Part shown: positions 2,715 through 6,468 of the stretch, one piece after another
Numbering within the stretch: position 1 is the stretch's first letter
Layout of the letters: each line of letters opens with the position of its first letter
Origin: a bacterium
Lineage (GTDB): Bacteria > JAJVIF01 > JAGGVT01
DNA length: 6,468 nt
Reading direction: 5' to 3'
Assembly (NCBI GenBank): GCA_021157815.1
Contig: JAGGVT010000206.1
Span: 1-6,468 of the forward strand
Program-made: the position numbers and the translations under genes
Notes under the pieces: model-generated
Told to the model about the DNA's origin: nothing
The model's input: only the letters and a program-made list of their open reading frames with translations
Databases searched by the model: none

Positions 2715-2820
2715 TGTAAAATTGCCAGTGTCCGGTTAATGAGCAACCAAGATGAAATCACTTAATAACCGAGCCCCGAACGTAAGAGCCTGTCGGGAAA
2801 GCATGTTTATTTATAAACTT

Positions 2821-3026
2821 GAGACCGTTGCATAAAAGATATTTCTGTTGGAATCCGCAAAAAAGGGGACAGTCCACAAGGGCTTCAAGCGTGATGATTT
2901 CAACAGACATTGTTCTAAATCCTAGTGTTTATCGCATTTACAAATCTGGTTGGGACAATCCCCTTTTTTGCTCAGTATTGTGGATTTAACCTAATATCAT
3001 TCAATCTGTTGTTTTGCAACGGTCTC
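2821..3026. mobile_element. MITE-like 206-bp element with 5-bp target duplication
   Basis: Perfect terminal inverted repeats GAGACCGTTGCA (2821-2832) and TGCAACGGTCTC (3015-3026) bound a non-coding segment. AACTT lies immediately outside both ends (2816-2820 and 3027-3031), as expected of a target-site duplication. A second, subterminal inverted repeat is nested inside: GCAAAAAAGGGGACAGTCC at 2857-2875 matches the reverse complement of 2953-2971 at 17 of 19 positions. No transposase frame exists inside, so movement would need an enzyme supplied in trans. Ends beginning GAGACC recall some IS5-group elements from memory, but the family was not verified. The TT/AA bases beside the ends also pair, so the exact boundary could shift by two bases. 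Confidence 0.75.
2857..2971. repeat. Nested subterminal inverted repeat inside the MITE-like element
   Basis: The arms at 2857-2875 and 2953-2971 share a 13-bp perfect core (GCAAAAAAGGGGA and its complement), then two mismatches, then four further matches. Each arm also contains a small local palindrome (GGAC-a-GTCC on the left, GGGA-caa-TCCC on the right). This may be a second transposase-binding site, or the ends of an older element nested in the outer one. Confidence 0.6.
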
Positions 3027-3051
3027 AACTTACAATTCTCCTGACAACTTT

Positions 3052-3155
3052 CGGGTGCCGCCCACACATCACGTCTTTTTGTGATTTGTGGGTGAAATGC
3101 GTAACTTCGTAACATGTCACCCATAAAGCCGAGACGGCTGTATGGGCGGCACCCG
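3052..3155. repeat. Cloverleaf-forming palindromic element, 104 bp
   Basis: The outer arms CGGGTGCCGCCCA (3052-3064) and TGGGCGGCACCCG (3143-3155) are a perfect 13-bp inverted repeat. Inside are three further hairpins. Arm 1 pairs 3061-3072 with 3081-3092 (12 positions, one mismatch, 8-nt loop). Arm 2 pairs 3090-3099 with 3113-3122 (10 positions, one mismatch). Arm 3 pairs 3120-3131 with 3135-3146 (12 positions, one mismatch, 3-nt loop aga). Neighbouring arms share GGG or CCC triplets at 3061-3063, 3090-3092, 3120-3122 and 3144-3146. The whole is therefore a four-way junction able to slide by 3 bp. No coding frame or T-run explains it. It could be a mobile palindromic repeat, a structured RNA or a protein-bound DNA cruciform; I do not recognise the family. 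Confidence 0.7.
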
Positions 3156-6264: not shown

Positions 6265-6287
6265 CTAACATCACGAAGTGATGTTAG
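6265..6287. repeat. Perfect 10-bp-arm palindrome between sigma and tRNA-Ser genes
   Basis: CTAACATCAC and GTGATGTTAG are exact reverse complements around GAA. No T-run follows on either strand, so it is not a typical terminator. It could be an operator for a dimeric regulator of the divergent sigma gene, or a small dispersed palindromic repeat. Confidence 0.6.
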
Positions 6288-6371
6288 TGTCCTGAGTCCT
6301 TCGACAGGTTTAGGGGCTGCGACAGAGTTTTGGATTTAAAGCCCTTCGACTCGCTGCGCTCGCTCAGGACA
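6288..6371. repeat. Composite repeat with inverted ends TGTCCTGAG/CTCAGGACA
   Basis: TGTCCTGAG (6288-6296) is the exact reverse complement of CTCAGGACA (6363-6371), and CCTTCGAC occurs twice in direct orientation (6298-6305, 6343-6350). The right part, CCCTTCGACTCGCTGCGCTC and onward, resembles a short palindromic sequence that recurs between genes in many bacterial genomes (recalled, not searched). A small hairpin, ATCCC-tgc-GGGAT (6371-6383), abuts the tRNA. Confidence 0.6.
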
Positions 6372-6383
6372 TCCCTGCGGGAT

Positions 6384-6468
6384 GGAGAGGTGACCGAGTG
6401 GCTGAAGGTGCACGCCTGGAAAGCGTGTGTGCGGCAACGTACCGTGGGTTCGAATCCCACCCTCTCCG
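6384..6468 (+). tRNA. tRNA-Ser, anticodon GGA
   Basis: This is a complete class II tRNA of 85 nt, decoding UCC and UCU. The acceptor stem is GGAGAGG (6384-6390) with CCTCTCC (6461-6467), and the discriminator is G6468. The anticodon arm is CACGC-CTGGAAA-GCGTG (6411-6427) with anticodon GGA at 6418-6420. A long variable arm, GTGCG-gcaa-CGTAC (6429-6442), is the hallmark of tRNA-Ser. The T arm is GTGGG-TTCGAAT-CCCAC (6444-6460). Whether CCA is encoded cannot be seen, because the window ends at the discriminator. Confidence 0.97.

Follow-up and report, generated by a model that had tools for sequence, protein, structure and literature searches.

The stretch of DNA analysed here, referred to as the window, is 6,468 nucleotides long and constitutes contig C108 of a draft genome of 3.2 Mb. 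Between two convergent genes, which end at 2714 and 3371, lies a 104-bp element that folds as a cloverleaf (Table 1). It is preceded by the left part of a larger repeat, the T element, whose right part is not recognisable at this copy. The left part is itself interrupted by a 206-bp element whose terminal inverted repeats are imperfect and 15 bp long. That element has 41 matches in the genome. Most are partial and cover its centre alone (about 39-149), possibly a separate repeat nested within it. Two further repeats lie near the ends of the window. Positions 1-150 begin within a GC-rich module (cccgcgagcggggagggagaatgttg...ccccccgcttgcgggggtg) that also occupies the interior of other T elements; it is located just upstream of a peroxiredoxin-like ORF at 235. 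Positions 6284-6380 contain copies of palindromic sequences of the CCTTCGACTCGCTGCGCTCGCTCAGGAC kind, beside the tRNA-Ser gene at 6383.

Table 1. Positions of the repeat features in the window and of the putative partner transposase gene on contig C84.
Feature	Position	Strand	Remarks
T element, left part	2784..2820	+	Terminal motif AAGAGCCTGTCGGGAAAG at 2784-2801; larger repeat that carries the REPIN in many copies; left context in 30/57 REPINs
206-bp inverted-repeat element (GAGACCGTTGCATAA...TTTTGCAACGGTCTC)	2821..3026	.	Inserted in the left part of the T element; AACTT repeated at 2816-2820 and 3027-3031
T element, left part continued	3032..3051	+	Abuts the REPIN directly (ACAATTCTCCTGACAACTTT)
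Probable REPIN, an inverted REP heterodimer; cloverleaf of outer arm and three hairpins	3052..3155	+	104 bp; basis: fold, copy number
Unit A (REP)	3053..3094	+	Tag GGGTGC, then hairpin CGCCCACA-C/T-ATCAC...GTGAT-TGTGGGTG; G.T wobble at second pair; also on both sides of the RAYT gene
CCC triplet	3061..3063	+	Pairs with 3144-3146 (outer arm) or 3090-3092 (unit A stem)
Middle arm/spacer GGGTG-AAATGCGTAACTTCGTAACATGT-CACCC	3090..3122	+	Foot alone well conserved; 81% of cells paired
Unit B (second REP, inverted), GGGTGCCGCCCATACAGCCGTCTCGGCTTTATGGGTG	3118..3154	-	Tag and stem base as in unit A, stem and loop different; compensatory GC to AT stem changes
GGG triplet	3144..3146	+	Pairs with 3061-3063 (outer arm) or 3120-3122 (unit B stem)
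RAYT/TnpA-REP ORF	C84:16586-17131		182 aa; basis: family profiles, fold, flanking unit A copies

Geometry and fold of the element

The outer arm is a 13-bp inverted repeat without mismatch (CGGGTGCCGCCCA/TGGGCGGCACCCG), formed by positions 3052-3064 and 3143-3155. Inside it are three hairpins, each of which has a single mismatch following six base pairs. Beyond the mismatch, arm 1 (CCCACA-C/T-ATCAC) continues for 5 bp and arm 3 (CCCATA-A/G-AGCC) for 4 bp; arm 2 (GGGTGA-A/G-ATG) continues for 3 bp and is weak at its top. GGG/CCC triplets are located at 3061-3063, 3090-3092, 3120-3122 and 3144-3146. Both the geometry and the positions of the triplets are as given in the preliminary description of this DNA. 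The 104 bp fold far better than shuffled sequences with RNA parameters (z -7.6) as well as DNA parameters (z -6.2), and none of 200 shuffles was equally good. When the junction is moved so that the outer arm shortens from 13 to 9 bp, all positions lie within about 2 kcal/mol of one another (-27.7 to -29.6, DNA parameters), indicating that the junction can slide. An Rfam scan of the window gave no match to the element; the sole match was tRNA-Ser at 6384.

Two related units in inverted orientation

The element consists of two units, A and B, that are related but not identical. They are inverted relative to each other, with the 5' tags outermost and a hairpin spacer in between, and have in common the tag, the stem base and a mismatch at the equivalent position of the stem. 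The full sequence of unit A is GGGTGCCGCCCACACATCACGTCTTTTTGTGATTTGTGGGTG. The hairpin starts directly after GGGTGC, counting the C-G and G.T pairs at the foot. This layout was first thought to be unlike that of any known repeat family; it is in fact that of an inverted REP dimer.

The spacer occurs in either orientation and is reversed in about ten copies (for example L066, L087, L090, L092 and L094). The reversed form, ATTACTGCGAAGTCATGCAATTT, resembles the reverse complement of the usual spacer; the middle arm may have been inverted, or units may have been exchanged. Unit A occurs alone in 12 copies among the places read, and no solo unit B was found among the places listed. The raw count of unpaired ends, 31 for A and 5 for B, overstates this asymmetry because imperfect partners are not listed, and it was replaced by the counts obtained from reading the loci. 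At L128, unit A was lost and the spacer and unit B were kept. Both there and at L048, the loss of one unit is exact and bounded by short direct repeats (CACCC...CACCC, GGGTG...GGGTG), as would fit slippage or excision of a single unit. The spacing is constant: the collected dimers measure 102-105 bp, except for three with an insert of 27-28 bp. A palindromic sequence of this length, TCCCTCGATAAACTCGGGATCTTCGAG, is present within the outer stem of four copies (L030, L043, L044 and L097), indicating that a second small repeat inserts into the element.

Covariation

Pairing was analyzed across 52 different dimers. In arm A (arm 1) 99.7% of the cells are paired, and in arm B (arm 3) 97.5%. Compensatory changes are found in both: in arm B, G-C is replaced by A-U in four copies and C-G by U-A in one; in arm A, C-G is replaced by U-A once and A-U by G-C once. 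Over the entire structure there are 11 double-changed cells compared with 3.6 in shuffles, and none of 500 shuffles reached as high a number. As a control, sliding the pairing partners reduces pairing to below 50%. The outer arm is nearly invariant among the 52 dimers and gives no compensatory evidence except at its terminal pair, and pairing in the middle arm is weak beyond the foot. Compensatory changes had been proposed as a test in all four arms. They are present in arms 1 and 3, and the outer and middle arms are supported by conservation and not by covariation.

A RAYT transposase bracketed by unit A

On contig C84 of the same genome, an ORF lies between two copies of unit A (L040/L100). 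Its start is 22 bp downstream of the second GGGTG in one copy, and the other copy, which is inverted, follows directly after the stop codon. The encoded protein matches the NCBIfam family of REP-associated tyrosine transposases with 92.8 bits (cut-off 80) and scores above the cut-off for Pfam Y1_Tnp. Classification as the TnpA of an IS200/IS605 insertion sequence was rejected, as the score for NF033573 is 32.3 bits and the cut-off is 55. The AlphaFold model has a pLDDT of 87.9, and its best PDB match is 4er8, a RAYT bound to a REP hairpin (E 2.9e-9). Seven relatives all have both HUH histidines (HVH) and the candidate catalytic tyrosine, Y139. The genome encodes nine Y1 transposases. The RAYT is present in one copy, and no unit A was found beside the other Y1 genes of the genome. 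From this gene arrangement, the C84 RAYT is probably the partner transposase of the 104-bp element.

We propose that positions 3052-3155 are very probably a REPIN (bacterial interspersed mosaic element), in which units A and B form a non-autonomous inverted pair, with the GGGTGC tags at the outside and a hairpin spacer in the middle, that is mobilised by the C84 RAYT acting in trans. The copy number, the unit structure, the compensation in arms A and B, the RAYT with its flanks and the conservation of the tag across RAYTs are observed, all by comparative analysis. Recognition, cutting and movement of the REPIN by the RAYT would follow the precedent of E. coli TnpA-REP and IS200/IS605. The C84 RAYT, bracketed by two inverted unit A copies, would constitute a REPtron. 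Unit A would fold when the DNA is single-stranded, as in the lagging-strand template. The HUH/Y1 enzyme would recognise the 5' tag together with the hairpin and the mismatch in the middle of its stem, cut near the hairpin foot and rejoin the single strands, and A-spacer-B could thereby be excised, copied and inserted without target duplication. The cloverleaf itself results from the common tag and stem base, which may pair within the units, making arms 1 and 3 long, or between the units, making the outer arm and arm 2 long.

Genomic copies and their contexts

In a first genome search, the 104 bp gave at least 40 copies with an identity of 90% or higher. At least 57 copies, all distinct dimers, were collected in the source genome, where dimers with the exact tag number 47. 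The unit-end pattern GGGTGCCGCCCAYAYA, with up to two mismatches, was found at 158 places compared with 4 for the reversed control. The element is thus not single-copy, and its recurrence agrees with the earlier view that such order is unlikely to arise by chance. The proposal that it is a mobile palindromic element is likewise upheld by the many dispersed copies, the compensatory changes in arms 1 and 3, and the RAYT gene flanked by one of the units; the situation named earlier as speaking against the idea, a single copy without compensatory variation, is not what the genome shows. No match to the 104 bp was found in 58 other genomes; the sequence is lineage-specific, and the relatives described below were found through the RAYT and the tag.

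The flanks of the 57 copies fall into several classes. Thirty have the left flank of the T element, 26 have its right flank, and 22 have both. Five lie in a second repeated context, and 11 are in unique sequence on both sides. Among these 11 there is no excess of flanking repeats and thus no sign of the target duplication of a classical MITE. An open frame of 110 codons or more crosses six of 31 copies (frames as predicted, coding status aside). More than half of the copies are inside the larger repeat, and much of the copy number may be due to that element and not to the RAYT. It could even be that the 104-bp core is immobile by itself and forms the structured centre of a larger MITE-like element, which has terminal repeats AAGAGCCTGTCGGGAAAG and would be moved by a putative transposase of that larger element. 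The common flanks would fit this explanation, as would the presence of the terminal motif about 148 times in the genome. We nevertheless consider it improbable, because the copies in unique sequence and in the second context lie outside the common flanks, and the larger element is also found with quite different interiors and no core. In addition, solo unit A occurs outside the larger element, and unit A brackets the RAYT gene.

The larger repeats show further variation. The motif AAGAGCCTGTCGGGAAAG (window 2784-2801; L051-L061) bounds elements of about 200 bp whose interiors are very different, being either the REPIN or a CCCTCCCCGCGAGCGGGGAGGG/CCCCCCGCTCGCGGGGGG module; L067 is a hybrid of the two. 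The elements bounded by this motif are a family with common ends and exchangeable cores. At L052-L057, the ends indicate that the elements seem to be inserted in the loops of other palindromic repeats (TAGCAGAGGGTTT/AAACCCTCTGCTA, CCGGCTTTCG/TTTCGCAGG, ATGCTAAAG/TAAAGCATGG), as if hairpin loops were their insertion target. The REPIN at L126 combines the T-element flank on its left with the flank of the second context on its right, which would fit recombination between two carriers by way of the REPIN.

The genomic contexts also bear on the possibility that the core is a fixed regulatory RNA structure, such as a terminator, mRNA stabiliser or attenuator, under selection for a host function. Its RNA fold is good, the window copy lies between convergent genes, and only three of the 27 copies with both neighbours are between divergent frames. 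REPs in other bacteria can act like terminators, stabilisers or attenuators as a side effect. As an account of the element, however, this is very unlikely: there is no Rfam match, a long T run after the outer arm is absent, the copies occur in many unrelated contexts including the inside of other repeats, and their dispersal is explained by the association with a transposase. The suggestion of a structured RNA 3' end found no support for the same reasons of context and Rfam result.

Related RAYTs and the GGGTGSC tag

Six RAYTs (46-60% identity) are encoded in two other genomes of the same small phylum. Each is bracketed by inverted repeats whose first bases are GGGTGCC, GGGTGGC or something close to these (GGTGTCG in one case), and a different hairpin comes next. 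One of the genomes searched, G001, contains about four full-length dimers with the same arrangement and quite different arms. A single-sequence scan of GTDB genomes with the C84 RAYT gave no relative. A profile built from the seven RAYTs gave 80 further loci, a few of them the same-phylum loci already found; most are from Planctomycetota, and others are from Zixiibacteriota and Hydrogenedentota MAGs.

GGGTG(C/G)C (GGGTGSC) is present on both sides in the right orientation at 45 of the 69 RAYT loci with both flanks, a set that includes the C84 locus itself and relatives selected for their similarity, some of which closely resemble each other. The reversed motif was found at 2/69 loci, the wrong orientation at 9/69, and the motif in distal windows at 0/45. 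The hairpins behind the tag are unrelated in sequence. Inverted dimers bounded by GGGTGGCA number 51, 12 and 7 in three of ten other RAYT genomes, with 0 in the control, and several dimers of other genomes (L217, L218, L221 and L223) form an outer arm and three hairpins when folded. In the enzymes, the segment WQxGGGYDRN is nearly constant, although it doubled as a search pattern and its constancy is not independent.

We considered whether GGGTGCC is a wholly new tag and rejected this idea: with the hairpin foot at CG/TG, the tetranucleotide is GTGC in the window element and GTGG in most relatives, close to GT[AG]G. GTGG is found in 68 of 105 tags near related RAYTs and fits GT[AG]G. The foot of the window element, GTGC within GGGTGC, thus departs from the canonical form. 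None of the papers compared below describes the tag GGGTGSC, although subclass 2.6 or some other group may already include it. Among the matches listed by a literature search for this string, all were unrelated.

Basis of the sliding junction

Both units of a dimer begin alike, with the tag and the stem base, and as a consequence a few bases belong to the outer arm as well as to the unit stems. These common bases can pair inside each unit or across units, so sliding is expected of such dimers. Consistent with this, the overlap is 3-8 nt in most of the examined dimers of other genomes and phyla, which are unrelated in sequence. The 3-bp branch migration noted at the outset is real, but inverted units with a common tag and stem base explain it, and it therefore does not indicate that a sliding junction has been selected. 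Any inverted dimer with a common stem base is expected to have a four-way junction that can migrate, and such a junction should not be read as a sign that the element is of a new kind.

Another reading is that of a cruciform to which a dedicated junction protein binds and in which the branch migration is what is selected. It would suit the near-equal energies of the junction positions but is extremely unlikely, as sliding follows from the common stem bases and also occurs in unrelated dimers of other sequence and length, the copies occur in many sequence contexts, and the linked gene encodes a single-strand HUH transposase and no junction-binding protein. Neither this reading nor that of an RNA 3' end is needed for the 104-bp element.

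With the REPIN interpretation, a broader classification may be put forward tentatively, although we think it is more probably wrong than right. GGGTGSC-tagged REPs might form a superfamily of their own (compare GTAG and CGTC) in Planctomycetota and several candidate phyla. They would be served by a RAYT clade with WQxGGGYDRN where E. coli TnpA-REP reads GTAG, and would move as heterodimers whose sliding cloverleaf switches unit A between enzyme-readable and unreadable forms. Pairing the tag with the WQxGGGYDRN segment offers a test of how RAYTs read their tags.

Comparison with known systems

The window element works like a REPIN/BIME and belongs there by anatomy, with a variant tag. In REPINs of Pseudomonas fluorescens (Bertels and Rainey, 2011, PMC3116915), the doublet is described as one long hairpin of like units with 71 bp between conserved 16-mers. 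Those elements resemble the present one in being dispersed, RAYT-linked, inverted REP doublets with a folding spacer and compensatory changes, and the doublet is likewise taken as the mobile unit. The window element differs in its tag and in being made of two different units with long stems of their own, which gives the cloverleaf. E. coli BIME/REP sequences and TnpA-REP (PMC8266576; PDB 4er8) have in common with it an HUH/Y1 enzyme, units with a 5' tag and a mid-stem mismatch, and REP/inverse-REP pairs, but the E. coli tag is GTAG instead of GGGTGC and the unit sequences are unrelated.

The GTAG and CGTC superfamilies and the TIRtrons (Di Nocera, 2013, PMC3733652) include heterodimers with structured spacers, and RAYT-like genes lying between inverted repeats of which further copies exist in the genome. 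The window element has neither the GTAG nor the CGTC tag nor the motif GGGGWSAS of those systems, and GGGTG is not mentioned in the main text of that paper. Atypical REPs of TnpA-Y1 subclasses 2.6 and 3 (Quentin, 2018, PMC6006769) are similar in that RAYT genes are flanked by non-canonical hairpins copied elsewhere in the genome. Subclass 2.6 is mainly from Bacteroidetes; class 3 is largely from Planctomycetes and has the foot CnGA, unlike the GTGC foot of the window element. The published REP foot is mostly, not always, GT[AG]G (PMC6006769, PMC3733652). Usual REPs have a conserved tetranucleotide, whereas the window element and its relatives have the longer conserved GGGTGSC. The present system extends REP/REPIN-RAYT systems to a small candidate phylum, and the 5' tag GGGTG(C/G)C is common to RAYTs of Planctomycetota and allied lineages even though the hairpins behind it differ widely.
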